Shown here one piece after another: positions 26,154 through 40,838 of a stretch of DNA of 64,000 bases. The stretch is from Micromonospora sp. WMMD1082 (GTDB taxonomy: Bacteria > Actinomycetota > Actinomycetes > Mycobacteriales > Micromonosporaceae). Positions within the stretch are counted from its first letter, which is position 1; each line of letters opens with the position of its first letter. Under the pieces are notes generated by a model, which worked only from the letters and a program-made list of their open reading frames with translations, was not told the origin of the DNA and did not search any database. The DNA lies in contig NZ_JARUBM010000002.1 of NCBI RefSeq assembly GCF_029626175.1, positions 4,853,001-4,917,000 on the forward strand, written 5' to 3'. A program made the position numbers and the translations under genes.

Positions 26154-26209
26154 GCGCTTTCGCCCGGCGCCGCCGGTGCCGCCGCGCCAGGCTTGTCGGC
26201 GGTACGGGC

Positions 26210-26215
26210 TAGAGT
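26210..26215 (+). promoter_or_regulatory. Candidate -10 box of polA, leaderless
   Basis: TAGAGT ends 7 bases before the polA GTG; no ribosome binding site is present. Confidence 0.45.
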
Positions 26216-26222
26216 CGCAGCC

Positions 26223-28922
26223 GTGACAGCTACGACCCCGCGCCTGCTGCTCGTTGACGGACACTCCCTGGCATACCGGGCCTTCTTCGCCCTGCCGGTG
26301 GAAAACTTCTCCACCACGACCGGGCAGCCGACCAACGCGGTCTACGGCTTCACCTCGATGCTGATCAACGTGCTGCGCGACGAGCAGCCGACCCACATCA
26401 TCGTCGCCTTCGACGTGTCCCGCCGCTCCTTCCGCACCGAGAAGTACGCGGAATACAAGGCCGGCCGCAGCGAGACCCCGACCGACTTCAAGGGGCAGGT
26501 CAGCCTCGTGAAGGAGGTCCTGGCGGCGCTGCGCGTCCCGGTGGTGGAGATGGCGGGCTACGAGGCCGACGACGTGATCGCCACCCTCGCCTGCCAGGCC
26601 CGTGACCAGGGCATGCCGGTGCTGATCTGCACCGGCGACCGGGACGCCTTCCAACTCGTCGACGAGCAGATCACCGTCCTCTACCCGCGCAAGGGCGTCT
26701 CCGACCTGGCCCGGATGGACCCGGCGGCGGTCGAGGCGAAGTACGGCGTCGTCCCCGGCCGTTACCGGGACCTGGCCGCGCTGGTCGGCGAGACCAGCGA
26801 CAACCTGCCCGGAATCCCCGGCGTCGGTCCGAAGACCGCGGCCAAGTGGATCAACACGTACGGCGGTGTGGAGGGCGTCATCGCCCGCGCCGACGAGATC
26901 AAGGGCAAGGCCGGCGACAGCCTCCGCGAGCGGCTCGCCGACGTGATCCGTAACTACGAGATCAACTGTCTGGTCGCCGATCTGGAGCTGCCGTTGCGCC
27001 CCGAGGACGCCCGCTGGCCGGGGTGGGACCGCGAGGCGGTGCACCAGGTCTTCGACACCCTTCAGTTCCGCATCCTGCGCGACCGGTTGTACCAATACCT
27101 CGACGCGGTCGAGCCGGAGGCGGAGGCGGGCTTCGACCTGGCCGGTGAGGTGCTCGCCGCGTCGGGTGCGCTGGTCGGCTGGCTGGAGACGCACGTGCCG
27201 GCCGACACGCCGGTCGGCGTCGCGGTGAAGCTCGACACCGGCCCGAACCGGCGGCACACCGCCGGCGTCACCGGGATGGCGCTGGCCACCGCCGATGGCG
27301 CGGCGGTCTGGTTCGACCCGAGCGGGCTCGAGGCGGCCGACGAGGCGGCCCTCGCCGGCTGGCTGGCCGACGAGACCCGGCCCAAGGTGCTGCACGACAG
27401 CAAGCCTGCGGTGCTGGCCTTCGCCGCGCACGGCTGGTCGCTGGCCGGCATCGCCCGCGACACCCAGATCGCCGCCTACCTGGCCCGCCCCGACCAGCGT
27501 TCCTACGACCTGACCGACCTGGCCCTGCGTTACCTGCACCGCGAGCTGCGGGTCGACGCCCCGGAGACCGGCCAGTTGACGCTGGATGGCCTCGGCGGTG
27601 ACGGCGCCGCCGAGCAGAACCTCATGCTCCACGCCCGGGCCACCCTCGACCTGGCCGACGCGATCGACGCGGAGCTGTCCCGCGACGGGGAGCAGTCGGC
27701 CCGGCTGATGGCCGGGGTGGAGCTGCCGCTGATGCGGGTGCTGGCGCAGATGGAACGCACCGGCATCGCGGCGGACACCGACTACCTCTCCGAGTTGGAG
27801 GCGCACTTCGCGGCCGAGGTGAAGGCCGCCGCGCAGGGCGCGTACGAGGCGGTGGGTCGGGAGTTCAACCTCGGCTCGCCCAAGCAGTTGCAGGAGATCC
27901 TCTTCGGTGAGCTGAACCTGCCCAAGACCAAGCGGATCAAGACGGGCTACACCACCGACGCCGACGCGTTGCAGTGGCTCTACGCGCAGAATCCGCACCC
28001 GGTGCTCGCCCACCTGCTGCGCCACCGGGACGTCGCCAAGCTCAAGTCGACGGTGGACGGGCTGCTCAAGTCGGTCTCCGACGACGGGCGCATCCACACC
28101 ACCTTCAACCAGACGGTGGCCGCCACCGGCCGGCTCTCCTCCACCGAGCCCAACCTGCAGAACATCCCCATCCGCACTCAGGAGGGGCGGCGGATCCGCC
28201 GGGCCTTCGTGGTGGGGCAGGGATACGAATGCCTCCTCACCGCCGACTACAGCCAGATCGAGATGCGGATCATGGCGCACCTGTCGGCCGACGACGCGCT
28301 GATCCAGGCGTTCAACTCCGGCGCCGACTTCCACGCGGTGACCGCCTCGTCGGTCTTCACGGTGCCGCTCGCCGAGGTCACCCCGGACCAGCGCCGCAAG
28401 ATCAAGGCGATGAACTACGGCCTGGCGTACGGGCTGAGCGCCTTCGGCCTGTCCCAGCAGCTCGGCATCACCGCCGAGGAGGCGCGTGGGCTGATGGAGG
28501 ACTACTTCGCCGGGTTCGGCGGAGTCCGCGACTACCTGCACGAGGTGGTCGCCCGGGCCCGCCAGGACGGCTACACCTCCACCATCCTCGGCCGCCGGCG
28601 CTACCTGCCCGACCTGGTCAGCGACAACCGGCAGCGGCGGGAGATGGCCGAGCGGATGGCGCTCAACGCACCGATCCAGGGCTCCGCGGCGGACATCATC
28701 AAGGTCGCCATGCTGCACGTCGACAGCGCGCTGCGCGACGCCGGGCTGGGCTCCCGGATGCTGCTGCAGGTGCACGACGAGCTGGTCTTCGAGGTGGCGC
28801 CGGGGGAGCGGGCCGCGCTGGAGGAGCTGGTGCGCCGCGAGATGGGCGGGGCCTACCCGCTCTCCGTGCCCCTGGAGGTCTCCGTCGGCGACGGCCGCGA
28901 CTGGAACAGCGCCGACCACTGA
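26223..28922 (+). CDS. polA: DNA polymerase I
   Basis: 899 aa. N-terminal 5'-3' (flap) nuclease domain: LLLVDGHSLAYRAFFALP, VAFDVSRRSFRTEKYAEYK, AGYEADDVIATLA, TGDRDAFQLV, GETSDNLPGIPGVGPKTA. The central 3'-5' exonuclease-like domain (about 310-500) lacks the usual DxE motif and the NLKYD motif (here HDSKPAVLA), so proofreading is probably absent, as in mycobacterial Pol I. The polymerase domain is intact: motif A DYSQIEMRIMAHLS, motif B RRKIKAMNYGLAYGLS, motif C LQVHDELVFEV. Repair and Okazaki fragment processing. GTG at 26223 chosen; TTG at 26193 is in frame but lies upstream of the -10-like box. Confidence 0.96.
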   Translation: MTATTPRLLLVDGHSLAYRAFFALPVENFSTTTGQPTNAVYGFTSMLINVLRDEQPTHIIVAFDVSRRSFRTEKYAEYKAGRSETPTDFKGQVSLVKEVLAALRVPVVEMAGYEADDVIATLACQARDQGMPVLICTGDRDAFQLVDEQITVLYPRKGVSDLARMDPAAVEAKYGVVPGRYRDLAALVGETSDNLPGIPGVGPKTAAKWINTYGGVEGVIARADEIKGKAGDSLRERLADVIRNYEINCLVADLELPLRPEDARWPGWDREAVHQVFDTLQFRILRDRLYQYLDAVEPEAEAGFDLAGEVLAASGALVGWLETHVPADTPVGVAVKLDTGPNRRHTAGVTGMALATADGAAVWFDPSGLEAADEAALAGWLADETRPKVLHDSKPAVLAFAAHGWSLAGIARDTQIAAYLARPDQRSYDLTDLALRYLHRELRVDAPETGQLTLDGLGGDGAAEQNLMLHARATLDLADAIDAELSRDGEQSARLMAGVELPLMRVLAQMERTGIAADTDYLSELEAHFAAEVKAAAQGAYEAVGREFNLGSPKQLQEILFGELNLPKTKRIKTGYTTDADALQWLYAQNPHPVLAHLLRHRDVAKLKSTVDGLLKSVSDDGRIHTTFNQTVAATGRLSSTEPNLQNIPIRTQEGRRIRRAFVVGQGYECLLTADYSQIEMRIMAHLSADDALIQAFNSGADFHAVTASSVFTVPLAEVTPDQRRKIKAMNYGLAYGLSAFGLSQQLGITAEEARGLMEDYFAGFGGVRDYLHEVVARARQDGYTSTILGRRRYLPDLVSDNRQRREMAERMALNAPIQGSAADIIKVAMLHVDSALRDAGLGSRMLLQVHDELVFEVAPGERAALEELVRREMGGAYPLSVPLEVSVGDGRDWNSADH

Positions 28923-29535: not shown

Positions 29536-30074
29536 CTAGGGAGTGACGTCGGCGATCGGCAGCTTGATCTCGAAGGGCTCGGTCAACTCGATCAGCTCCG
29601 CGCTGTCCGCGACGAGTTCGTACTGCCGCTCCCCGCCCGGCCCGATCCGGTCACCGAGGCGGTACGCGTACAGGTGCACCGGGTCCTGTTCGATGCGCCA
29701 GTAGAAGGGGATGCCGGCGGCGGCGTACTCACCCGGCTTGGCGAACCGGTCGACCCGGCGGGTGCCCGGCGAGACGACCTCGACGGCCAGGACGACGTCC
29801 GCCGGCCGTAGCCGGGACCGGTCGGACGGCAGCCCGGCGCGGCACAGCAGCACGTCCGGTTGTCGGCTGGTGTTGTGGCTGAGCCCGACGCCGACCGCCT
29901 GAGCGGCACGTAGGTGCGGGAGGGCGTCACCTGGATGACTCCGTCAACGAGTTCGACGCGGGGGGCGTCCTCCGGCAGGTTGAGCAGATCCTCCAGCGTG
30001 TAGTCGGCACGCTGCTGCCGCATCGGGTCCGGAGACCAGCGGCCAGGCGGTGTCGCGATCGGCCCGGCGCTCAC
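29536..30074 (-). pseudogene. Uma2-type endonuclease-fold gene, disrupted
   Basis: Two frames together resemble one Uma2 (DUF820, PD-(D/E)XK-like) protein. The first part starts at GTG 30074: YTLEDLLNLPEDAPRVELVD and GVIQVTPS, the usual N-terminus. The second part reads in another frame from about 29900: VGLSHNTSRQPDVLLCRAGL, RPADVVLAVEVVSPG, and DRFAKPGEYAAAGIPFYWRI, ending at 29536. About 30 residues expected between them are missing and the frame shifts near 29905-29930. I infer an internal deletion that killed the gene. It lies next to the island's left edge. Confidence 0.75.
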
Positions 30075-30142: not shown

Positions 30143-30240
30143 TCACCCGCCCGGCTTCTCGGCGACGAAGATGGCGGTGCCGGGGAAGAGCCGCCCGCGC
30201 AGCGGGCTCCACTGCCCCCAGATCCCCTCGTGCCCCTCGG
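30143..30240 (-). pseudogene. C-terminal fragment of a class I SAM methyltransferase
   Basis: Reading on the minus strand from 30238 to the TGA at 30143-30145 gives EGHEGIWGQWSPLRGRLFPG and TAIFVAEKPGG, closely matching the C-terminus of the intact methyltransferase at 39413-40237 (GHEEVWGQWSPLRGRLFPGT). Beyond 30240 the similarity stops abruptly. This is the tail of the gene whose N-terminal part lies at 40314-40838. About 70 residues expected between the two parts are absent from both ends. Confidence 0.85.
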
Positions 30241-30287
30241 CGAGTGATGCCGACCAATGGACCCGGCGCGACATGATCCCGGCACGG

Positions 30288-30293
30288 TAGGTT
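30288..30293 (+). promoter_or_regulatory. Candidate -10 box of island murF, leaderless
   Basis: TAGGTT ends 6 bases before the GTG at 30300; no ribosome binding site. The whole promoter would lie within the first 50 bases of the island. Confidence 0.45.
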
Positions 30294-30299
30294 CATGCC

Positions 30300-31706
30300 G
30301 TGCTACCGATGACTCTGCAAGAGATCACGGCCGTTGCCGGCGGGAGCGTTCGGGACGCCGCCGGCCCGGTGACAGTGACAGCCCCGGTGGTGTTCGACAG
30401 TCGGCGCGTGGAGCCCGGCGGGATGTTCGTGGCGCTACCCGGTGAACGCGTCGACGGGCACGACTACGCCGCCCAGGCCATCGAAGCGGGCGCGGCGGCG
30501 GTGCTGGCGTCGCGGCAGGTCGGGGTACCGGCCGTCGTCGTCGAGGACGTGCCCACCGCGTACGGGCGGCTGGCCCGCGCAGTGGTGGACCGGCTTCCAC
30601 GCACCACGGTGATCGGGGTGACCGGCTCGGTGGGTAAGACCTCGACCAAAGACATTCTCGCCCAGGTGCTCCCCATGTTCGGCCCGACCGTGGCTAACCG
30701 GGGTTCGAACAACAACGAGCTTGGGTTGCCGTACACGGTCACCCGCGCCACCGAGGACACCCGCTATCTGGTGTTGGAGATGGGAGCGCGGGGCATCGGG
30801 CATGTGGCTTATCTGACCGGTATCGCCCCGCCCACGGTCAGCGTCGTCACTCGGGTCGGGCACGCGCACTTGGGCGAGTTCGGGTCGGTGGAGAACATCG
30901 CCCAGGCCAAAGGTGAGATCGTGGAAGCGCTTCCCTCCGCAGGCAAGGGAGGATTGGCCGTGCTCAACGGCGACGATCCGTTGGTGGCCGCGATGGCGTC
31001 CCGCACGGCCGCCCGGGTGCTCCGTTACGGCATCGAGCAGCCGGCCGACGTGCGCGCCGAGGGCGTGAGCGTGGACGAGTTGGGCCGCGCCCGGTTCCAG
31101 CTGGTGCACGACGGCCCGGCGGCCGAGGTGCGGTTGCGGCTCTACGGGTTGCACCAGGCGTCCAACGCGCTCGCTGCCGCTACCGTGGCCCTTGGGCTGG
31201 GTCATCCGATCGAGGCGGTAGCCGAGGCGGTGTCGCACGCGGAGGCGGTGTCACCGGGACGGATGCAGGTCACGACCCGCTCAGATGGCGTGACGGTCAT
31301 CAACGACGCGTACAACGCCGCGCCCGACGCGATGCGAGCAGCGTTGAGGGCGCTGTACGCGATGACCGGGGACGGCCGGCGGGCGGTAGCGGTGCTCGGT
31401 GAGATGGCCGAGTTGGGCGACCACGCTCCGCAGGTGCATCGCGAGATTGGACAGCAGGTGATCGAGATCGGGGCTGGATGGCTGGTGGCGATCGGCGGGG
31501 CCGACGCCGAGCAGTACGCAGCCGGGGCCGCCGGTAACGGCACCACCGTCGATCGAGCGGCGGACGTGACCGAGGCATGGGAACTGCTGCGCGACGGGCT
31601 ACGGCCGGGCGATGTCGTGTTGGTGAAGGCCGCGAACGGCGCCGGACTCCTCGCACTGGCGGAGAAGCTGACCGAGGAGCCCGGCACCGTCACCGCCGAG
31701 ACGTAG
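30300..31706 (+). CDS. murF: MurF-type ligase (UDP-MurNAc-tripeptide--D-Ala-D-Ala ligase), accessory copy
   Basis: 468 aa Mur ligase. N-terminal domain VTAPVVFDSRRVEPGGMFVA; ATP-binding loop VIGVTGSVGKTSTKDILAQV; EMGARGIGHVAYL and RVGHAHLGEFGS in the central domain; carbamyl-Lys region NIAQAKGEIVE; LNGDDPL; and C-terminal VINDAYNAAPDAMRAALRAL. These are MurF features. MurF adds D-Ala-D-Ala to the peptidoglycan precursor in the cytoplasm. It is not in a dcw cluster, so it is probably a second copy. It converges with the MurC-type gene with 3 bases between stops. GTG at 30300 or ATG at 30309. Confidence 0.9.
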   Translation: MLPMTLQEITAVAGGSVRDAAGPVTVTAPVVFDSRRVEPGGMFVALPGERVDGHDYAAQAIEAGAAAVLASRQVGVPAVVVEDVPTAYGRLARAVVDRLPRTTVIGVTGSVGKTSTKDILAQVLPMFGPTVANRGSNNNELGLPYTVTRATEDTRYLVLEMGARGIGHVAYLTGIAPPTVSVVTRVGHAHLGEFGSVENIAQAKGEIVEALPSAGKGGLAVLNGDDPLVAAMASRTAARVLRYGIEQPADVRAEGVSVDELGRARFQLVHDGPAAEVRLRLYGLHQASNALAAATVALGLGHPIEAVAEAVSHAEAVSPGRMQVTTRSDGVTVINDAYNAAPDAMRAALRALYAMTGDGRRAVAVLGEMAELGDHAPQVHREIGQQVIEIGAGWLVAIGGADAEQYAAGAAGNGTTVDRAADVTEAWELLRDGLRPGDVVLVKAANGAGLLALAEKLTEEPGTVTAET

Positions 31707-31709
31707 CCA

Positions 31710-33155
31710 TCACGCGGACAGCGCGACCTCAGATCGGTTCCTCAGGGTGTCCAGGATCGCCGCGCCGTAACCGGTCACGTCTCCGGTTCCCATCGTCACC
31801 ACCACGTCGCCGCGGCCGGCCATCCGCGCGATGACCCGGGCCGCATGGTCCGGGCCGAGCGGCAGGCAGTAGCTACCCTCGCGCAGCCGCGTCCGGATGA
31901 CCGTGCCGTCCGCGACCGGCCGCCCCGCCGGCACAGTGCCGTGCACGTCGAGCAGCAAGACGTGATCGGCCTTGTCCGCCAAGAGCCCGCCGATGCGGTC
32001 TCCGAAGGCCAGGACTCGGGCGTGACCGGACGGCTGAAACACCACGAACACGCGTCCCCGCGCCAGCGTCCGCGCGGCGTCGAGGTCGGCGGCGATCTCG
32101 TTCGGGTGATCGGCGTAGGAGTCGATCACCATTACCCCGCCCCGGGTGTCGATGTGCTCGAACCGCCTACGCACCCCGCCGAAGGTGCACGCCGCCCCGG
32201 CTACGTCGCCGGGGTCCAAGCCCAGTACCGCCGCGCACGCCATGGCCGCCGCCGCGTTGTTCAGGTGATGCGCCGCCGGAGTCGGCAGGGTCAGCCGGAC
32301 CTCCGTTCCGTTCGGCATCCGCACCGTCGCGGACGCACTCCAGCCCTCGGCGTGCACGTCCAACAGCCGCACGTCCGCCGTCCGATCCCGGCCGTACCGC
32401 AGTACCGTCAGGTCGGGACGCTCGTCGGCGATCACATCGGCGGTCACCGTCGCCCCAACGCAATCCGCGTTGACGATCAGGAAGCCGTACGGCGCGACCC
32501 GGCCGCCGAACTCGACGTAGGCCCGCAGGACCTCGGCGTGGCTGACGAAGTTCTCCGGGTGGTCGTCGGTCACATTCGTGACGACCGCGATCGACGGAGT
32601 GAGGAAGTGAAACGAGCGATCCGACTCGTCCGCCTCCGCCACCAGCAGCCGGGACGCGCCGAGGTGGGCGCCAGAGCCCGCCCCAGTCAGGTCGGCACCG
32701 ATCAGGTACGTCGGGTCCTGCCCAAGGGTGCGCAGGATGTGAGCGAGCATGCCCGCCGTGGTGGACTTGCCGTGCGACCCGGACACCGCCACCAGCCGCC
32801 GCGCGGCGGCCAACTCGTCGAGGACCTGCGCCCGGTGCACCACCGGAATGCCCGCCACCCGGGCCGCACGCACCTCGGGCGCGTTCTGCGCGACGGTGGT
32901 GTAGACGACGCAGCTCGCACCCTCGATGTGCGCCGGGTCGTGCCCGACCTGCACTCGCACGCCGGCCGCACGCAGCGCCGCCAGCGTGGCCGAGTCACGT
33001 AGATCGCTGCCGCTGACCTCGTGACCCAACTCGGCCAGCAGCCGCGCCAGGCCGGACATCGCGCAACCGCCGATGCCCACGAAATACGGACGGGACAGGT
33101 CGATCGGACCGGTGTACGCCTCGATCGTCGGGTTACCAGTGATCGTGTCGGTCAT
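31710..33155 (-). CDS. murC: MurC-type ligase (UDP-MurNAc--L-alanine ligase), accessory copy
   Basis: 481 aa. N-terminal Rossmann-like domain YFVGIGGCAMSGLARLLAEL and GHEVSGSDLRDSATL; ATP loop LVAVSGSHGKSTTAGMLAHI; LLVAEADESDRSF; VVTNVTDDHPENF; C-terminal RRRFEHIDTRGGVMVIDSYA followed by DHPNEI. MurC attaches the first amino acid (usually L-Ala) to UDP-MurNAc. DHPNEI replaces the more usual DYAHHPTEI, a small variation in the family signature. ATG at 33155 has AAGGAG 10 bases upstream. It is the third gene of a minus-strand unit with two small genes, convergent with the MurF-type gene. Confidence 0.9.
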   Translation of the reverse strand: MTDTITGNPTIEAYTGPIDLSRPYFVGIGGCAMSGLARLLAELGHEVSGSDLRDSATLAALRAAGVRVQVGHDPAHIEGASCVVYTTVAQNAPEVRAARVAGIPVVHRAQVLDELAAARRLVAVSGSHGKSTTAGMLAHILRTLGQDPTYLIGADLTGAGSGAHLGASRLLVAEADESDRSFHFLTPSIAVVTNVTDDHPENFVSHAEVLRAYVEFGGRVAPYGFLIVNADCVGATVTADVIADERPDLTVLRYGRDRTADVRLLDVHAEGWSASATVRMPNGTEVRLTLPTPAAHHLNNAAAAMACAAVLGLDPGDVAGAACTFGGVRRRFEHIDTRGGVMVIDSYADHPNEIAADLDAARTLARGRVFVVFQPSGHARVLAFGDRIGGLLADKADHVLLLDVHGTVPAGRPVADGTVIRTRLREGSYCLPLGPDHAARVIARMAGRGDVVVTMGTGDVTGYGAAILDTLRNRSEVALSA

Positions 33156-33369
33156 GGTGCCGTGTCTCCTTCGGTAGAGCTGACAGGGTGATGCCACGAG
33201 CTGACGTGCTAGGGAGTCCACTCCTTCCGATCGATGCGATTCCTTGCGCGACCGAGTGGCCTCGGGTCACCAGCTCGGCCGCGCCAGCCCAATCGATCTG
33301 CGTCGGACGATCCGCCGGCACTGCCGCCGCAGCGCGCCTGGCATCCGATCCAGGGCTGCCCGACGACAT
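33133..33369 (-). CDS. Small hypothetical protein B, coupled to A and murC
   Basis: 78 aa. Its ATG (33369-33367) shares one base with the TGA of the upstream gene (TGATG), and its stop lies 23 bases inside murC, whose ribosome binding site it contains. The core is RPTQIDWAGAAELVTRGHSV followed by AQGIASIGR; no family recognised. The overlap at both ends supports real translation and coupling to murC, though a shorter product or a frameshift at the end cannot be excluded. Confidence 0.5.
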   Translation of the reverse strand: MSSGSPGSDARRAAAAVPADRPTQIDWAGAAELVTRGHSVAQGIASIGRSGLPSTSARGITLSALPKETRHHDRHDHW

Positions 33370-33740
33370 CAGCACTCACGACGCCGCACCGACCGATGCC
33401 CGGGACGAGCCCGTGGCTGACCCGGCGCGTATTCCGCAGCGGCGCGCGCCGGAGGCCGGGCAGGCAACGTGCATGCATCGTCAGCGGCAACGGATCGCGG
33501 AGCAGCCAGGAGGCCCGGACCACCGACGCGGCGCGCGTTGACTAGCTCAGGGCGTGTCGCCCCAGGAATCCGCCGAGGCAGACGAAGCGAACTGCGAAAC
33601 ACTCGTACGGCGTGCTCCCGCTCCGCGCATGGTCCCAGCGTTCCGCAGCCGATACACCGGCCGTCCGCACTCGACACCGCATGCCGCTCCAACGCGACCT
33701 GTGCGGCGTCGAGCTGTTCGCCGCCGGAATAAGTCGCCAC
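33369..33740 (-). CDS. Small Cys-motif protein A
   Basis: 123 aa from GTG 33740, which has GGAGG 8 bases upstream; longer in-frame starts lack a binding site. It contains CIGCGTLGPC (C-x2-C-x5-C, a possible zinc-binding turn), then EREHAVRVFRSSLRLPRRIP, GATRPELVNARRVG and an Arg/Ala-rich tail. Similar short Cys-motif proteins sit beside HTH regulators in actinobacteria, but I cannot name a function. Divergent from the HTH regulator at 34031; first gene of the A-B-murC unit. Confidence 0.55.
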   Translation of the reverse strand: MATYSGGEQLDAAQVALERHAVSSADGRCIGCGTLGPCAEREHAVRVFRSSLRLPRRIPGATRPELVNARRVGGPGLLAAPRSVAADDACTLPARPPARAAAEYAPGQPRARPGHRSVRRREC

Positions 33741-34030
33741 GCGATCGACCTCCACAGGGGGCAGGGCACGCCGCATGGAGGAACGCGTGCGCCTCCACAC
33801 GGCGGCCCTGCCCATCACCCACCACCACGGCGCACACCGCTCGTAGAAGTGGGGAGCCGCCAACAGTTCTCCGTACGCGAGACCGGTGTGAGATAAGGCG
33901 ATTCCTTCCGCCGCATCGGTCGCCGGCCCGGCTACCTGTAGCGAACCGCAAACCACGGGCGGTAGGTACGCTGTGACGCACGTCGAAGCGGTGAACGTGG
34001 TGAAAGATCAACTTTCGGACGGGGGTAACC
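33741..34030. promoter_or_regulatory. Divergent control region of the island
   Basis: This gap lies between protein A (minus) and the HTH regulator (plus). TACGCT at 33967-33972 is a possible -10 for the regulator. GAAAG-ATCAA-CTTTC (34002-34016) is a perfect 5-5-5 inverted repeat just before its start and a candidate autoregulatory site. No other gene is supported. Confidence 0.45.
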
Positions 34031-35425
34031 GTGCCGCACATAGGAGCGAGCAACGCCAAGCTCGCAGCCGTGATAGCCGAGGCCGGCATGTCACACGCCG
34101 AGGTGGCACGGGCGTTCGTTCGCGTCGCGCAGGAAATGAACGCAAAGGAGTTCAGCGGAGTCGGCCGCTCCCACGTGTCGCACTGGGTCGCCGGCTCCAA
34201 GCCCTCCGGGCGAGCACCCGGCCTGCTGTGCGAGGCACTGTCACGAAAGCTTGGCCGGGTAGTCACGCTCGATGAGATCGGGTTACCAGCTCCGCTGCTG
34301 TCCTCCAGAGACATGCTCGGATGGCGGGTCGATACGCTGGCTGCGCTAACCGAACTCGGGAGAGTCGACGTGGACGCTGAACGCAGACGCGTACTCAGCA
34401 CTGCCGCTTACTCGCTCGCCGCGCTGACTCTGCCCGGCGGACGCTGGTGGGAACAGATGGCCGAACGCGGCCAAGCACGCGGCGCAGCAGGCGGCAAGAT
34501 GGTCGGCCGAGGCGACGTCGACGCCGTGCGCGACATGGCGTCGTTGTTCTCCCGAGTCGACCAACGCCGGGGCGGTGGCCACGCTCGCTTAGCGGTGGTG
34601 CAGTACCTCACCTCTGACGTGGCGAGCTTCCTATGCGGACGCTACGCCGACGACGCACTCAGGCGAGACATGTTTACGGCCGCCAGCGAACTTTCCTACC
34701 TCGCCGGCTGGATGGCTTTCGACAACGGTGAGCACAACGTTGCTCAGCACTATTTCAACGTGTCAGTAAAGTTGGCTGCCGAGGCCGAGAATCCGGCGAT
34801 GGCAGGCCACGTACTGCGCGCAATGGCTCACCAGGCGATCGATCTGGGGCACCACAAACATTCTTTGAATCTCGCATCAGCGTCGATGGACACCCAGCGC
34901 TACAAGGCCGCAGCCCCACGAGAGCGGGCACTACTCGGCGTCGTCTACGCTCGCGCACTCGGGGTGAACGGGGAGACCCAACAGGCTGCTCGCGCGCTTC
35001 TGCAAGCTGAGGACGATCTTGCCGCCGCCTCAGATGGCGACGATGAGCCCGGGCGTGTGTTCTTCTTCGGGGAGGCTAGCCTGGCGCACGAGACAGCATG
35101 TGCGCTGCGCGACACCGGCGACCTGACCGGCGCAGCGAAGCAATTCCGCCGGAGCGTCAAGACCCGCAAAGCATCATCCTTTACCCGAACCCATGCCGTC
35201 ACACTCGGCTACATGGGGGCAATTCAAGCCAGGCAAGGTGACATCGAGGAGGCGTGCGATACATGGTCGCGCTCCCTGGATGCGATGGACGGAGTACGGT
35301 CAGGCCGCACGCGTCAGGTCGCAGCGGAAATGCGCGCCCTCCTTTCTCCCTATAAACGCCGCAGCATTCGAGTAGTCCAAGACGTGGATATGCGGGCCAG
35401 GAATTACCTCTCATCTTTCGCGTAA
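34031..35425 (+). CDS. HTH regulator with TPR-like C-terminal domain
   Basis: 464 aa. The N-terminal 85 residues have an XRE-like helix-turn-helix (NAKLAAVIAEAGMSHAEVAR, VGRSHVSHWVAGSKPSGRAP, LLCEALSRKLGR). From about residue 170 onward repeated helix pairs (for example ELSYLAGWMAFDNGEHNVAQ, HVLRAMAHQAIDLGHHKHSL) look like TPR units. Such proteins are common orphan regulators in Streptomyces and relatives, often controlling the adjacent operon in response to a peptide or metabolite. GTG at 34031. Divergent from the A-B-murC unit and 35 bases upstream of the TrmO-like gene, so it could govern both sides of the island. Confidence 0.85.
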   Translation: MPHIGASNAKLAAVIAEAGMSHAEVARAFVRVAQEMNAKEFSGVGRSHVSHWVAGSKPSGRAPGLLCEALSRKLGRVVTLDEIGLPAPLLSSRDMLGWRVDTLAALTELGRVDVDAERRRVLSTAAYSLAALTLPGGRWWEQMAERGQARGAAGGKMVGRGDVDAVRDMASLFSRVDQRRGGGHARLAVVQYLTSDVASFLCGRYADDALRRDMFTAASELSYLAGWMAFDNGEHNVAQHYFNVSVKLAAEAENPAMAGHVLRAMAHQAIDLGHHKHSLNLASASMDTQRYKAAAPRERALLGVVYARALGVNGETQQAARALLQAEDDLAAASDGDDEPGRVFFFGEASLAHETACALRDTGDLTGAAKQFRRSVKTRKASSFTRTHAVTLGYMGAIQARQGDIEEACDTWSRSLDAMDGVRSGRTRQVAAEMRALLSPYKRRSIRVVQDVDMRARNYLSSFA

Positions 35426-35460
35426 TACGAGACATCTGATCACAATAGTGGGAGGCCGGA

Positions 35461-35946
35461 GTGGCAGCCGAGAAGTTTACAGTGGAGCCCGTTGCGCATG
35501 TGGTGGGTGGGAGAAGCGAGCCGACCGACGATTACTGGGGCGGAAGTCAGGCAATTATCCGAATTGATGATGAGCGTTTCACGCCGGAAGCCACCAGAGG
35601 GCTGGAAGAGTTCTCCCATCTTGAGGTTGTCTTTCGGTTCCACCTCACTGATCCGACTGATCTCAACCTAGGCGCGCGTCGTCCCAGAGACAACCCACAG
35701 TGGCCAGAGGTGGGCATTTTCGGTCATCGAAACATGCGGCGCATCAACTGGTTGGGTGTATCTCGATGCCGCCTGGCCAAAGTTGACGGCCTTGATCTTT
35801 ACGTCGAGGAATTAGACGCGGTGGACGGTACCCCCATTCTGGACATCAAGCCATGGTTCTCGGAGTTCGGCCCGAGAGGTGGAATTCGTCAAGCCGGATG
35901 GACTACGCAGATGTTAGGGCCATACTTCGCCAAGCGCGCCGAGTAG
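35461..35946 (+). CDS. TrmO-like SAM-dependent methyltransferase domain protein
   Basis: 161 aa with the all-beta TrmO/YaeB pattern: FTVEPVAHVVGGRSEPTDDY at the start, GLEEFSHLEVVFRFH, then GIFGHRNMRRINWLGVSRCR and GTPILDIKPWFSEFGPRG. In TrmO these correspond to the SAM-binding and N6-methylation region acting on t6A37 of tRNA-Thr. The protein is single-domain and diverged, so the target may differ. GTG at 35461 follows GGGAGG. It lies 13 bases before the metallopeptidase gene and 35 after the regulator; base composition is lower in GC than the backbone. Confidence 0.75.
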   Translation: MAAEKFTVEPVAHVVGGRSEPTDDYWGGSQAIIRIDDERFTPEATRGLEEFSHLEVVFRFHLTDPTDLNLGARRPRDNPQWPEVGIFGHRNMRRINWLGVSRCRLAKVDGLDLYVEELDAVDGTPILDIKPWFSEFGPRGGIRQAGWTTQMLGPYFAKRAE

Positions 35947-35959
35947 TAGGTAGACCGGG

Positions 35960-37165
35960 GTGGCTACGCTTAAGAATTCCAGAGGAAAGTTCTTCCACGT
36001 TCACAGGATGCCGCCAGATCTAAACTTCTGGCTGTACTTTTTTCGCCACGCCGGACGAGAGGCGGAGCTAGATCCAGCACTGGTGCGGCGCGCCCAGGGG
36101 TGGCAGCCCGAGCGCTCGAACTGCCCCCGCTTGACATTCCTCTTGGATGACCTTATTGACGCCGTTCCTGCTGAATGGCGCGCGTTAGCCGCAAATCTGT
36201 TCGCAGGTCGAGTGCTTCAGGGGGACGTGAATGCAGCCGCTTGGACCGAGCGCAAAGCGGGCATATTAGAGATCAACGTACAATACTCGTTCACATTGAG
36301 CGCTTACGCCGCAGCCTATGACGAATTCTTTCATCACCTAAAAGACTTTTCCCTTCATGTTATGCGGGACGCCATCAAGGCGGAGGAGTTGAGTGCTTCA
36401 ATCAACAAGCGTTTCCAGGAGCCCTGGGATCAGTTAGAAAATGCGCGTGAGGCATGGCTAGATCGACGCCTTGTAGCCACCGGCAACCCCGTTCGGCTTC
36501 GCCTGACCATGGGGCGTGAGGACGTACAAGAGGACATGGTTGACGCAGCGGAGTCCTTCGTGATAGCCCACGAGCTCTCGCATCACCTCCTTGGCCATAC
36601 AGTCAGCAGAAGAGACAAGCGACGGGCCAAACTAATCGTCGACCGGACAGTCGAGAGGCTCGGACTATTCCCAGCTATGGCCGCACTGAACAACTCTCAG
36701 CGCGAGGAGCTTCAGGCCGACCTGCTCGCGTACCTAATTGTCGCGCAGGCAATAGAACGGGATCCAACGTTCGCTGACCTATACCGAGCCGTCGCAGGCT
36801 CGTCGCTTGCGCTCATAACGTTAGCGCACGTCACTGGCGAGTGGGTGGAATCCGATTCTGCCAGTACGCACCCAGGCTTCGTGACTCGATTTGCTGTAAT
36901 GCAAAGCCTAACGGAATCGTTTTCGGCAGCTTCTGTGCCGGGCAGAATCGGAGATCATCCGCTCGGTTTCCTAGCTCAACTCTCCACCTTCGCGGCTGTC
37001 GCTCTAAGTGCATGGATGAGTCGCCACTATCCGGGGGAGCGGCCGGCCACAATCGAACAGGCTCTGAGTCACCTTATCAAATTGATGGACAGGGTGTATG
37101 GCGGTACGCCTGCACTGCGAGCCGAGGGCTCATCGACTGTCGTTCTTCCACCAGTAACAGGGTAG
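35960..37165 (+). CDS. HExxH metallopeptidase-like protein
   Basis: 401 aa. FVIAHELSHHLLGH (residues about 200-213) is a zinc-peptidase HExxH motif, and EELQAD about 45 residues later can supply the third ligand, as in gluzincin-like enzymes. No signal peptide, so it is probably cytoplasmic. The N-terminal 190 residues have no recognised domain. It is not an obvious ImmA/IrrE (no HTH partner fused) but could play that role towards the HTH regulator, or be a phage-exclusion-type protease; both are inference. GTG at 35960, 13 bases behind the TrmO-like gene. Codon use is AT-rich (many TTA, ATA and AAA-type codons), marking it as foreign. Confidence 0.7.
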   Translation: MATLKNSRGKFFHVHRMPPDLNFWLYFFRHAGREAELDPALVRRAQGWQPERSNCPRLTFLLDDLIDAVPAEWRALAANLFAGRVLQGDVNAAAWTERKAGILEINVQYSFTLSAYAAAYDEFFHHLKDFSLHVMRDAIKAEELSASINKRFQEPWDQLENAREAWLDRRLVATGNPVRLRLTMGREDVQEDMVDAAESFVIAHELSHHLLGHTVSRRDKRRAKLIVDRTVERLGLFPAMAALNNSQREELQADLLAYLIVAQAIERDPTFADLYRAVAGSSLALITLAHVTGEWVESDSASTHPGFVTRFAVMQSLTESFSAASVPGRIGDHPLGFLAQLSTFAAVALSAWMSRHYPGERPATIEQALSHLIKLMDRVYGGTPALRAEGSSTVVLPPVTG

Positions 37166-37272
37166 CTTTCGGTGGCCGTAGACAAGATGCGGGAGGGTTG
37201 CTGCGCCCGCGACCATCGAGCCGCGCGGTCCAAGCTAAGGACTGCCGTTGTTGGTGAGCCCGTTGTGAGCCC

Positions 37273-37358
37273 GGATGCCTCAACATTGAAGATCACGGGC
37301 AGGCATCCGATGGCATCCATAGGGGCATCTACCTCGACAGATAGACACCCCTATGGAT
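37273..37358. repeat. Two stem-loops in the island
   Basis: GGATGCCT (37273-37280) pairs with AGGCATCC (37301-37308), and ATCCATAGGGG (37315-37325) pairs with CCCCTATGGAT (37348-37358), both perfectly. They lie in the 344-base gap between the metallopeptidase gene and the 26-codon ORF; they may terminate the upstream operon or act as operators. Nothing else is supported in the gap. Confidence 0.65.
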
Positions 37359-37509
37359 TGTCAGTAACCCCGAATCACGATCGGAATTCAACTTCTAATC
37401 CCAAGGCTTTGGCCTGATTCGACTCTGACTCGGTGCACGGCCTCAGAGGATGTCGGAGGCTGCTGAGAGAATCGGCCAGCAAGCTCAGTCCCGATCCGAG
37501 GGAGTTCAG

Positions 37510-37590
37510 ATGGCTGCGTACAATTTCGAAGTCAGGATGCCGTGCGCTCACGCCCGGTGGGTCGAGTTCAATGGCATGGGTAAGCCGTGA
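37510..37590 (+). CDS. 26-codon ORF coupled to the next gene
   Basis: ATG at 37510 has GAGGGAG 6 bases upstream. The peptide starts MAAYNFEVRMPCAHARW and ends NGMGKP; its TGA overlaps the GTG of the 579-aa gene in GTGA. A real ribosome binding site plus the overlap suggest that it is translated, either as a functional micropeptide or as a leader that delivers ribosomes to the next start, which has no good site of its own. Confidence 0.5.
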   Translation: MAAYNFEVRMPCAHARWVEFNGMGKP

Positions 37591-39326
37591 CCGCCGAGGA
37601 GCAGGTCGAACCGCTTGAGGTCCAACCCGAGACACCCGCGGCCGAGGGCGACACCGCAATAGGAGTGGTGCCATCCCCGCAACGAGACCTGATCTCCGGG
37701 AGGGTCTCAGATGCTTACGATAAGGTGCCGTCGATTGGCGACCGCTGGACCCGCTGGTACGACCTTCCCTACAAGTTGCTGTGGTTCCTCCAGACCAACT
37801 GGCGGCGCAAGATCATTCCCCAACCGGCACTCCGTGCTCTCCGCCGCTGGTCCATCGATCTCAGCCAGTTCAACAAACTTGAGCGAGACAGAGTCTGGGA
37901 CCCGAGTGACCGGTTGCACGACTTCCAAGTGCCCGCTGATGAACACGTGAACATGCCGGGCATCTGGGTGGTGGAATTGTTCCCGCCGAGCGCTTTTGCC
38001 CGACTGGAGCGGGCGATCGATAGGAATGGCTGGGATGGGAACCGTTGGATGTCTGGTGCCCAAGAAACCAACGTCAACATGCTGCTAAAGTCTCGTGCTC
38101 GCATGGGATGGAACTGGTGGCGAATGGCTTCGATTCAGGACATCAATGGGACGTACATGATGCCTGACGGAGTGCGCGCCCAGTTGCCGCCTGAGTTCGG
38201 CTACATCGAGTTGAAGGCCATGCAGGTTGGATCCGGCCTAACTGCTGTTGTTGCTCACATCGAACTCTCCAAGTTGGGTGCCACACACCTCGATGAGGTG
38301 TGGCATCAGCCTCACGAGCCGATGTTAACCCGTCGAGACGGGCGGCTTCATGCACTTGATCGTATGTGGGCTGGATTCCACGTCACGCAGACGGCCCGAG
38401 AACGGCTGCACCAGTTGGCACGGAAGTGGATGAATGAGAGTTGCGATGGCGTCTTTGGTGAGTTCAACAGTCCTCAGACACTGATCGATATGCTTATTTT
38501 GGACCAGCACGACCCGACTGACGTTAGCGACGACCGCGACCGCGACAAGTTCGATGTGTTCCGAGCGCTCGGAATCACGGAGACGGACCTCTACTACTAC
38601 ACCTCCGCTGACATTCCCAAGATGCATTTGGTCCCGACTTCGCCGTCAATGGCGCGAGGCATTAGCACTGACCGCACGTGGGCACTTTGGGGCCAGCGTC
38701 AGGCTGTTGTGGACAGCGCCACCCACTTGACTGGCTACGGCGACGATCCGAACCGAGCTATAGCGCATCGCTATGGCGACGCGATCGAGAGCTTCTTGGT
38801 GACGCTGGCCGTATCTGACTTGCTCGAAACGGTCGAGGCTAGCTATGCGCTGATTCGAGATCGTGCTCGTGCGCAGCATGGCCGCTTTAAGGCCAAAGTC
38901 ATCAACGACCTCCGCGAGCAACTGCTGACCCTCAGCATCGACGTAGCGACCGTTAAGCGCGACTTGGAAAGGTCCTGGAAATCCCGACCCCGGTTTGAGG
39001 AGGAGGCGGAGTTCACGATCGATTACTCGCCACGCATTCGAGCCAGCTCCGATCTAAAGGACAAGCCGGTTCACATGAATACCGAGCTGCGGAAGCGTCA
39101 GAAAGAGCGATTCGAGGAACTAACCGCTGCTGACCGTGATTACCGGGACATCCTCTCGACGGTGGCCTCGCTGGGTGCCTCAGTAAATGCCGCCAAGACC
39201 GGTCGCCGTGCGCTGTGGGTTGCCTTCGTGTCGCTGGTGGTTGCCTCCGTAACCGTCGTGGTGACCGACATTGGCGACAGGAGCCTGTTCAACGAGGTGA
39301 TGGAGTTCCTGCGGAGCCTGCTTTGA
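37587..39326 (+). CDS. Unknown 579-aa protein with C-terminal membrane anchor
   Basis: 579 aa. I recognise no domain. Residues 1-40 are acidic and probably disordered. The middle (40-360) is Trp-rich (RWTRWYDLPYKLLWFLQTNW, ARMGWNWWRMASIQD). Residues 360-520 are helical and charged, with a likely coiled coil near 450-540 (LREQLLTLSIDVATVKRDLE; ELRKRQKERFEELTAADRDY). A single hydrophobic helix (LWVAFVSLVVASVTVVVTDI) lies close to the C-terminus. The layout, a large cytosolic body tethered by a C-terminal helix, resembles effector proteins of some defence or stress systems, but this is speculation. GC content is below the backbone. Confidence 0.7.
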   Translation: MTAEEQVEPLEVQPETPAAEGDTAIGVVPSPQRDLISGRVSDAYDKVPSIGDRWTRWYDLPYKLLWFLQTNWRRKIIPQPALRALRRWSIDLSQFNKLERDRVWDPSDRLHDFQVPADEHVNMPGIWVVELFPPSAFARLERAIDRNGWDGNRWMSGAQETNVNMLLKSRARMGWNWWRMASIQDINGTYMMPDGVRAQLPPEFGYIELKAMQVGSGLTAVVAHIELSKLGATHLDEVWHQPHEPMLTRRDGRLHALDRMWAGFHVTQTARERLHQLARKWMNESCDGVFGEFNSPQTLIDMLILDQHDPTDVSDDRDRDKFDVFRALGITETDLYYYTSADIPKMHLVPTSPSMARGISTDRTWALWGQRQAVVDSATHLTGYGDDPNRAIAHRYGDAIESFLVTLAVSDLLETVEASYALIRDRARAQHGRFKAKVINDLREQLLTLSIDVATVKRDLERSWKSRPRFEEEAEFTIDYSPRIRASSDLKDKPVHMNTELRKRQKERFEELTAADRDYRDILSTVASLGASVNAAKTGRRALWVAFVSLVVASVTVVVTDIGDRSLFNEVMEFLRSLL

Positions 39327-39399
39327 AGCCGAACGCGGCGGCTCGAAAGACACGCCCTGGTTAATCTTGGCACCGGCCGCCATGCCGACTGCCATCGCG

Positions 39400-39405
39400 T
39401 AACGT
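39400..39405 (+). promoter_or_regulatory. Candidate -10 box, leaderless
   Basis: TAACGT ends 7 bases before the ATG at 39413; no ribosome binding site. Confidence 0.45.
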
Positions 39406-39412
39406 TGCCAGG

Positions 39413-40237
39413 ATGACCGAGCCTCCAGCCCCTTCCGAAGCCCGTGTCACCCGCCGCACTGTTACATACGCAGAAGGCAGGACGGCGAGCCGGCATTGGT
39501 GGGACGAGGACGCTGACAGCTACCAGGAAGAGCACGGCGCTTTCCTCGGAGACGTTGACCTCGTGTGGTGCCCCGAGGGCCTACGCGAAGCAGACGCCAG
39601 GCTGCTCGGCGACGTCAAGGGGACACGAGTCCTGGAGATTGGCTGCGGCGCGGCTGCGGGGTCACGCTGGCTACTCGGCCAAGGGGCCGACGTTACGGCA
39701 CTGGACCTGTCCGCCGGCATGTTGCGGCACGCCAAGCTGGCCGCCGAACGCTCGGGCGTGCACGTCCCGCTCGTGCAAGCTGACGCTCTGGTGATGCCGT
39801 TCCGGGCAGGCACGTTCGACACCGTGCATACCGCGTTTGGCGCTGTCCCGTTTGTCGCAGACTCCGAAGCGCTCATGCGCGAAGTGTTCCGGGTGCTGCG
39901 CCCTGGTGGGACATGGATTTTTGCCGTTACTCACCCGATGCGCTGGATTTTTCTAGACGATCCCGGCGAGGCCGGCCTAAAGGCTGTCCACTCATACTTC
40001 GACCGCCGTCCATACGTTGAACAGGACTCGGCAGGAGTGCCCACCTACGTCGAGGCGCACCGCACCTTCGGCGATCGCGTCCGAGAACTTGCGGCCGCCG
40101 GCTTCCTTCTTTGTGACGTAGTCGAACCGGAGTGGCCGCCGGGACACGAGGAAGTCTGGGGCCAGTGGAGCCCACTTCGCGGTCGACTGTTCCCTGGTAC
40201 TGCCATTTTCGTAGCCCGTCGTCCAGCCGCTGTGTGA
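39413..40237 (+). CDS. Class I SAM-dependent methyltransferase (intact, island copy)
   Basis: 274 aa, methyltransferase type 11 fold: motif I RVLEIGCGAAAGSRWL, LDLSAGMLRHAKLAAE, PLVQADALVMPFRAGTFDTV, motif for the last strand RVLRPGGTWIFAVTHP. The acceptor substrate is unknown. It is closely similar along its whole length to the two fragments that flank the island (RVTRR, EHGAFLGDVDLVWCPEGLRE, LREADARLLGDV are shared with the 40314-40838 piece). It is on the opposite strand from the broken gene, with its stop 76 bases from the right junction. It may restore the function lost by insertion. Confidence 0.9.
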   Translation: MTEPPAPSEARVTRRTVTYAEGRTASRHWWDEDADSYQEEHGAFLGDVDLVWCPEGLREADARLLGDVKGTRVLEIGCGAAAGSRWLLGQGADVTALDLSAGMLRHAKLAAERSGVHVPLVQADALVMPFRAGTFDTVHTAFGAVPFVADSEALMREVFRVLRPGGTWIFAVTHPMRWIFLDDPGEAGLKAVHSYFDRRPYVEQDSAGVPTYVEAHRTFGDRVRELAAAGFLLCDVVEPEWPPGHEEVWGQWSPLRGRLFPGTAIFVARRPAAV

Positions 40238-40313
40238 CCCCCTGGTGCGAAGAGCGACGGAACCTGTCGCGGGGGTAACGCAATCGTGATCAAGGATTCT
40301 TGAACGTGTAAGA
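40238..40313. other. Right edge of the island
   Basis: 76 non-coding bases containing TCAAG-GATT-CTTGA (40290-40303), a small hairpin that may end the island methyltransferase transcript. I compared this edge by eye with 30241-30300 and found no convincing direct repeat. Confidence 0.4.
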
Positions 40314-40838
40314 TCATATCCACTTGATCGGGTGGGTGACCGAGAAGACCCAGCGCGCGCCGGGGCGCAGCACCCGGTGCACCTGTCGCATCAGCGCCGC
40401 CGAGTCCTCGACGAAGGGCACCGCGCCGAACGCCGTGCAGGCGATGTCGAAGCTCTCGTCCGCGAAGGGCAACACCAGCGCGTCGGCCTGCACCAGCGGT
40501 ACGCGTACCCCGCAGCGCTCGGCGGCCTCGGCGGCGTGCCGCAACATCCCGGCGGCCAGGTCCAGGGCGACCGGCCAGGCACCCTGGGTGGCCAGCCAGC
40601 GGGAGCAGGACGCGGCCCCGCAACCGACCTCCAGCACCCGCCGCCCGGTCACGTCGCCGAGCAGCCGGGCGTCGGCCTCGCGCAGCCCCTCCGGGCACCA
40701 GACGAAGTCCACGTCGCCCAGGAAGGCCCCGTGCTCGGCCTGGTACGCGTCGGCGTCGGCGTCCCACCAGCGGCGGTTGGCGCGGCGCGCCTCGGCGTCG
40801 CCGACCCGGCGCCGGGTCACCCGGTTGTCGTCGTCCAC
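40314..40838 (-). pseudogene. N-terminal fragment of a class I SAM methyltransferase
   Basis: From GTG 40838 the minus strand encodes RVTRRRVGDAEARRANRRWW, EHGAFLGDVDFVWCPEGLRE, VLEVGCGAASCSRWL and VFSVTHPIKWI, then stops at TGA 40314-40316. It is closely similar to residues 1-170 of the island methyltransferase. Homologues continue with about 100 more residues; the final 32 of these are found 10 kb away at 30143-30240. The SAM-binding half remains but the protein is truncated, so it is probably inactive. Divergent from rpsA. Confidence 0.85.

Follow-up and report, generated by a model that had tools for sequence, protein, structure and literature searches.

Actinomycete integrative and conjugative elements (AICEs) require three components, an integrase (Int), a transfer protein (Tra) and a replication protein (Rep), and most of them sit in the 3' ends of tRNA genes; 19 of 144 have serine recombinases, some inside protein-coding genes and one disrupting a putative endonuclease gene (PMC3218068, in the parts drawn on here). 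Integrative and conjugative elements (ICEs) and integrative and mobilizable elements (IMEs) with serine integrases disrupt dispensable or mostly non-essential genes (excerpts of PMC5704250 and PMC4701971). Tyrosine-type insertions preserve their target since the attachment (att) repeat includes one gene end (same excerpts). Here we analyze an island in a 64,000-nucleotide stretch of Micromonospora sp. WMMD1082 (hereafter the window; G000:C2:4853001-4917000 of a 7.44-Mb genome), in which a host methyltransferase (MT) gene lies in two pieces and a complete homologue, MTi, lies at the end of the intervening DNA. We consider it about 90% probable that this island is the decayed remnant of an AICE whose integrase split MT, and that the element-borne MTi takes over the function. 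A serine integrase would recombine attP of the element with attB inside the host MT gene and thereby split it, and MTi, a complete gene of the same family just inside one element end, would then replace the lost activity.

The element shares Int, an FtsK/SpoIIIE-type Tra and RepSA with pSAM2-type AICEs, for which the consulted parts of PMC3218068 mention no carried full-length substitute. With Firmicutes serine-integrase ICEs and IMEs (rumA, hsdM, mutT) it shares the serine integrase and a protein-gene target, which in one of their cases is an rRNA methyltransferase gene; unlike for the MTi element, no substitute gene is mentioned in those excerpts (PMC4701971, PMC5704250). Target-sparing tyrosine-integrase elements, which use tRNA genes or 3'/5' gene ends, likewise keep host function, but they keep the same gene whole, whereas the MT element leaves its target broken and supplies a separate whole gene (PMC5704250, in part). 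We compared the locus across Micromonospora and Salinispora, taken together as one genus group. An MT match was found in 151 of 151 genomes of this group, weaker in G014 and G023 and partial in G014. A full-length substitute for such a target is unlike both the disrupting and the target-sparing elements and looks new; among the titles and abstract openings listed in searches of one open-access library, none reported an MT target or a carried full-length AICE substitute. The locus also makes it possible to test how elements with serine integrases cope with targeting a conserved gene. Synthetic cleave-and-rescue gene drives likewise destroy a gene that is required and bring along a rescuing version of it; the MT element differs from them in being bacterial and in integrating site-specifically.

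The split methyltransferase and its proposed substitute

A sequence-only reading of the window had described a methyltransferase in two minus-strand parts around about 10 kb of DNA, with a similar full-length gene at the right end, and had proposed that an element entered the gene and brought a substitute. Comparison with relatives bears this out. The two pieces of the host gene lie between polA and rpsA, which that reading had noted as near neighbours in actinobacteria; both genes flank the island and also the related loci long enough to span them (Table 1). The N-terminal piece (N-part) ends in the codons K-W-I-stop, which lie within the element's att half and not in host DNA. Over 30153-30238, the DNA of the C-terminal piece (C-part) matches the host C-part of genome G100 at 97.7% identity and the substitute copy of G100 at 82.7%, and is therefore host-type and not of another family; fragments of two different families, which would have spoken against an insertion, were not seen. 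About 70 MT codons are missing between the pieces. MTi shows 72% identity with the N-part and 77-80% with the C-part (77% over MTi residues 242-272). It is the sole full-length MT copy in the window genome, where other matches are at most 41% identical. PDB sequence matches of MT are SAM-dependent methyltransferases of various kinds.

More than one MT match at E up to 1e-40 was found in six of the 151 genomes: the window genome (G000), G007, M. tarensis (G054), M. gifhornensis (G080), G100 and G130. An MTi-type gene accompanies host MT fragments, ending at residue ~180 or starting at residue 173, in all of these except G007. No C-part was found for G130, and that of the window is shorter than in the others. 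In NBRC 107566 (G151), MTi adjoins an N-part remnant covering residues 6-67. All six genomes found with a split or shortened MT at the locus carry MTi, so that truncated fragments lacking the island, the other outcome named in advance as damaging, were not encountered. The best MT copy is at least 80% identical to MTi in 15 of 151 genomes. The second match of G007 is a partial MTi-like gene (L127:7707-8000 in G007:C20; residues 3-100, 79%) away from polA-rpsA, and its native MT is intact.

We asked whether MTi might instead have been kept as a methylation gene for the element itself, for example in counter-defence, its link to the target being incidental. The PDB matches of MT, to methyltransferases of various kinds, leave room for this. 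MTi nevertheless comes from the same family as its target and is found close to an end of broken MT in each of the six element examples; the window genome has no other full-length copy, and MTi is under purifying selection as in hosts (dN/dS 0.06-0.18 in 28 pairs from six element and two fixed copies). We therefore regard a purely self-serving MTi as highly improbable.

The cleanest example is the complete locus L121 of G054, where the order is N-part, MTi, HTH regulators, murC, murF, a 454-aa protein, an FtsK/SpoIIIE translocase, two open reading frames (ORFs), RepSA, the serine integrase and the C-part. In G080 the corresponding genes lie on three contigs in a compatible order, with the translocase in L191, RepSA, and a 472-aa integrase ORF beside the MT C-part as in G054. 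G100 (L120) carries RepSA and a frameshifted integrase in an insertion of reversed orientation; no Tra match was found in G100. The insertion itself cost MT no codons in G054, G080 and G100, where joining the flanks at GAT gives stop-free genes of 268, 271 and 266 codons, respectively, the flanks of G080 being taken from two contigs. G054 and G080 thus hold all three AICE components, a site-specific integrase by the att site, a transfer protein and a replication initiator; none of them has a match among the island genes of the window. L120 also holds a repeated transposase-like ORF, as judged by eye.

The identical N-side junction with an MTi-type insert occurs in G000, G054, G080 and G130 and, reversed, in G100, while the C-side junction is visible in G054, G080 and G100. 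Because the N-side junction of the window is common to four other genomes, chance is excluded. Had cargo entered MT by illegitimate recombination, with the second MT an unrelated passenger, one would expect what the window taken singly displays, namely a ragged left junction and no int, rep or tra. However, only this ragged edge is what such an event would leave, the close integrase and RepSA are present in three of the genomes with the common junction and Tra in two, and all integrase genomes have MTi. The common junction refutes an ordinary genomic island or chance rearrangement, which is the least probable explanation we considered.

The sequence-only reading had left open that the element replaced the middle of MT at insertion, which does not fit the unshortened splits in G054, G080 and G100. 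Its remark that no integrase is visible was correct: at E up to 1e-30 there was no match in the window or in the whole window genome. Element homology resumes about 40 bp from the end of the C-part (Table 1), and the equivalent G054 interval (L121 9284-19876, ~10.6 kb) contains tra, rep, int and the first ~70 C-part codons. A single deletion of that half of the element would account for all three losses, those of the codons, of the integrase and of the right att site. By this comparison, the island of the window is a decayed remnant in which a later deletion took tra, rep, int, attR and ~70 MT codons and left MTi as the only full-length copy. The window element would no longer be able to leave by its own means.

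Close relatives of the integrase are rare: among 354 genomes of the family, three contain one at E up to 1e-110, and these belong to this genus; the three were found by integrase search and all three have MTi and a split MT. No plasmid record matched it at E up to 1e-60, viral contigs gave three stretches of 23% identity, and a protein database contained 12 clusters at least 70% identical, one from Micromonospora sp. NPDC051925 and the others from the sources lgn, ena and jgi. Around other serine integrases, a split gene with an intact homologue was found in none of eight regions (~19 kb on each side; drawn from 36 other matches of 37-43% identity), with G054 positive as control; in G044 and G129, neighbouring ORFs matched each other over no more than 50-52 residues. 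With 0 of 8, we do not claim a general rule that serine-integrase elements of the genus carry target substitutes.

Table 1. Features of the island and its surroundings in the window, and of the complete G054 element (last three rows).
Feature	Position	Strand	Remarks
polA	26193-28922		flanks the island
Host MT C-part remnant	30143-30238	-	~31 codons + stop; GIWGQWSPLRGRLFPGT...; stop codon 30143-30145
Deletion junction	30239-30278	.	C-part homology stops ~30238, element homology upstream of murF starts ~30278 (blastn vs L120, L121)
murF-like ligase, element cargo	30300-31706	+	TIGR01143 above cut-off; 56% to the genome's other murF
murC-like ligase, element cargo	31710-33221	-	TIGR01082 above cut-off; 36% to the genome's other murC
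NsdA-family TPR regulator	34031-35425	+	NF053720; also in G080 and G130 elements
TrmO-like protein	35461-35946	+	PF01980, under TIGR00104 equivalog cut-off; also in G080 and G130
M48-like metallopeptidase	35960-37165	+	PF01435, E 7.5e-5
579-aa protein	37587-39326	+	no family match
MTi, intact class I SAM-dependent methyltransferase, element-borne	39413-40237	+	274 aa; inverted relative to the broken gene
attL-type junction	40310-40329	-	GATCAAGTGGATATGATCTT; crossover in GAT 40327-40329, central AT 40327-40328
Host MT N-part ORF	40314-40838	-	ends VTHPIKWI-TGA; stop codon 40314-40316
Host-derived DNA of N-part	40327-40838	-	groups with native genes of the host's relatives; frame runs into element, stops at TGA
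FtsK/SpoIIIE translocase, G054	L121:13327-15099		PF01580, 6.5e-26
RepSA, G054	L121		PF20199, 5.5e-145; NF041486 461.7 bits, below the 700-bit equivalog cut-off
Serine integrase, G054			472 aa; PF00239 + PF07508; ORF start ~22 bp from MT C-part, in G080 as well

Attachment site and orientation

A search of the island edges, as the sequence-only reading had advised, yielded an attL-type junction on the N-side; attR was lost with the deletion. The junction letters are identical in G080 and G130, and G054 matches the degenerate pattern without mismatch. In the direction of the host gene, N-side junctions read ACCCACCCGAT-C(A/G)(A/G)GTGG(A/G)T... and C-side junctions ...CCCGAT (G054, G080) or ...ACTTGAT (G100) followed by GCGCTGG. 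The target in MT corresponds to the codons THPMRWI with the core CCCGAT/GCG. Of 71 native MT genes, 50 contain ACCCACCCGATGCG and all 71 the central AT. Resolvase and Recombinase domains together with short att sites sharing a central dinucleotide mark the predicted enzyme as a large serine integrase. The target is not spared: the N-part frame hits a TGA within the element end in G000, G054, G080 and G130, and in G100 it runs on into element sequence and gives no fused full-length frame.

MTi abuts the N-part in G054, G080, G000 and G130; in G100 the arrangement is reversed, with MTi next to the C-part and the integrase side towards the N-part. For Bxb1, a title in the reference list of PMC4111918 states that the central dinucleotide alone determines orientation. 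The self-complementary central AT of the MT site would permit insertion in both orientations, and one reversed genome is seen. Around this AT the attP halves match as inverted repeats at 18 of 24 positions in G054 and 16 of 24 in G080 (native attB, 8-9 of 21). The locus also provides, in a genus known for making antibiotics, a naturally occurring attB/attP pair whose centre is palindromic. With at most 2 mismatches allowed, the att pattern was matched in 7 of 160 genomes; among them, G035 and G011 each had a single hit outside the known cases.

On comparing the genomes, the site, the split, the intact copy, the int, Rep and Tra genes of the relatives and the one reversed insertion are all apparent. 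We infer that an integrase of the G054/G080 type catalyses this recombination and that MTi has the same function as MT.

Proposed replacement of the methyltransferase gene across the genus

We wondered what becomes of the substitute. In an MT tree of 39 rows, six element copies, seven sole MT copies in '+' orientation, which we call fixed, and the host N-part of G080 form one clade (100/99); this tree and a polA tree of 35 rows each cover part of the available loci. The fixed genes belong to four Salinispora species, HNM0581, ATCC 39149 and G074. The N-parts of the four remaining hosts are placed with native genes: that of M. tarensis groups with lupini (100/97; 100/100 in the polA tree), that of G130 with C95 (100/97) and that of the window inside the phaseoli-lutea-andamanensis group (98/85), which also surrounds the window polA, while that of G100 has no firm position. 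In the polA tree, HNM0581 lies within native-MT species (100/98), apart from ATCC 39149 and from Salinispora plus G074. We read the fixed genes as three lineages; a label count that omits 25 unlabelled native rows forces two changes.

Fixed copies run in the same direction as rpsA in 7 of 7 cases and natives in 0 of 70 (loci holding rpsA), and '+' is the direction in which the usual insertion places MTi. As an upstream motif, CCGTACCGTT or a close variant occurs in all 7 fixed genes, in 4 of the 7 element rows and in 4 of the 71 natives. Between MT and rpsA, HNM0581 retains a scar made up of an att-like sequence, recognized by eye, and ~80 bp that match a native N-part (CP22, 88.75%, E 1.6e-23; best of 50 shuffles 2e-3); the cargo is gone and MTi remains. 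As judged from this scar, these data demonstrate that the substitute became fixed in HNM0581. At an earlier time, the same process probably also ended in the inverted genes of the MTi clade that are found in Salinispora, ATCC 39149 and G074.

Alternatively, '+' genes could represent a normal host lineage with an inverted gene, from which the element captured MTi. Both belong to the same MT clade and the tree does not fix the direction of transfer; moreover, ATCC 39149 and Salinispora have no scar and the G080 host gene is of '+' type. Yet HNM0581, with its att and N-fragment scar, sits among native-MT species, a single inversion would need lateral transfers anyway, and the orientation is that of the usual insertion. 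We consider capture from such a host unlikely.

A further step would be to see the MT element as a natural insert-and-rescue element that breaks a core gene and supplies a rescue allele whose drifted or recoded att site is a poorer target, leading to irreversible, repeated replacement across the genus. The exact left attB arm ACCCACCCGAT is present in 50 of 71 native genes and 5 of 5 broken host copies but absent from all 6 element copies and all 7 fixed copies (L040 excluded here as a duplicate of L123, both being kept in the orientation and upstream-motif counts), and 4 of 7 fixed copies, those of Salinispora, have lost the central AT as well. The host gene broken in G080 already belongs to the MTi clade and has '+' orientation, so a replaced gene can be hit again, which would be a second round under insert-and-rescue. 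On the other hand, the element copies form one clade and may go back to just one or two events, the central AT is present in all six of them, and 21 of 71 natives lack the exact arm. We propose this step only tentatively, as possible rather than probable.

The reading of the island as an AICE remnant with a rescuing MTi draws on the elements of G054 and G080, and several observations weigh against it or its extension to fixed genes. Activity, excision, integration and transfer of the element are predictions from sequence. The reversed orientation is seen in G100, a single genome with a frameshifted integrase and no Tra match, whose attP halves match as inverted repeats at 11 of 24 positions without gaps. 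Three of the 7 element rows lack the upstream motif; by eye these are the window MTi and G080, which is counted twice. Spacers of Salinispora and ATCC 39149 hold no relic beyond shuffles, and that of G074 is borderline (4e-4 vs 2e-3 in 50 shuffles). polA adjoins the insertion site and its tree is partly exposed to local exchange, with G080 and G130 outside it. Finally, dN/dS of the fragments (0.07-0.28, 12 comparisons) versus native pairs (0.09-0.20, 11) indicates no more than mild relaxation.

If MTi does rescue its target, mobile elements have a route by which they can exchange core genes: the gene family persists in the host, but the copy passed down vertically is lost, and the host comes to rely on a gene of the element that can outlive the element. 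Trees and synteny from such replaced genes would mislead.

Cargo and neighbouring genes

From left to right the island encodes murF, murC, the NsdA-family regulator, the TrmO-like protein, the M48-like peptidase, the 579-aa protein and MTi. The description of this DNA as foreign-looking holds for ~34.5-39.5 kb, where G+C drops to 56-63%, and fails for the murF/murC end (30.3-33.2 kb), which at 70-72% resembles the flanks. We rejected murC/murF as belonging to the MT site; they are a wider cargo, given that element-type murC is present in 17 of 160 genus genomes. The murC-murF pair is carried by several elements or regions of the genus (L189, L191, L186-L188, L190, L192-L195; in L193 murC alone was seen). 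The G130 element additionally carries a reverse-transcriptase-like ORF (L125:13778-15562, read by eye) and a protein (L125:6930-8564) matching the candidate phage-defence family PDC-M58A (7.8e-11).

G017 holds an AICE with murC, murF, the 454-aa protein, Tra and RepSA, followed by a tyrosine-recombinase-type ORF (L197:1141-2733) beside tRNA-Arg(tct) at 2736-2809. The MT-targeting element looks like a sibling of this AICE with another integration module plus MTi, and integration modules appear to be swapped between sibling elements.

Adjoining the island, an ORF at 29536-30074, which we take to be Uma2-like by name although the tested piece matched no Pfam family, appears frame-broken, with two stops across its full span. 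Many relatives likewise match in two separate stretches.

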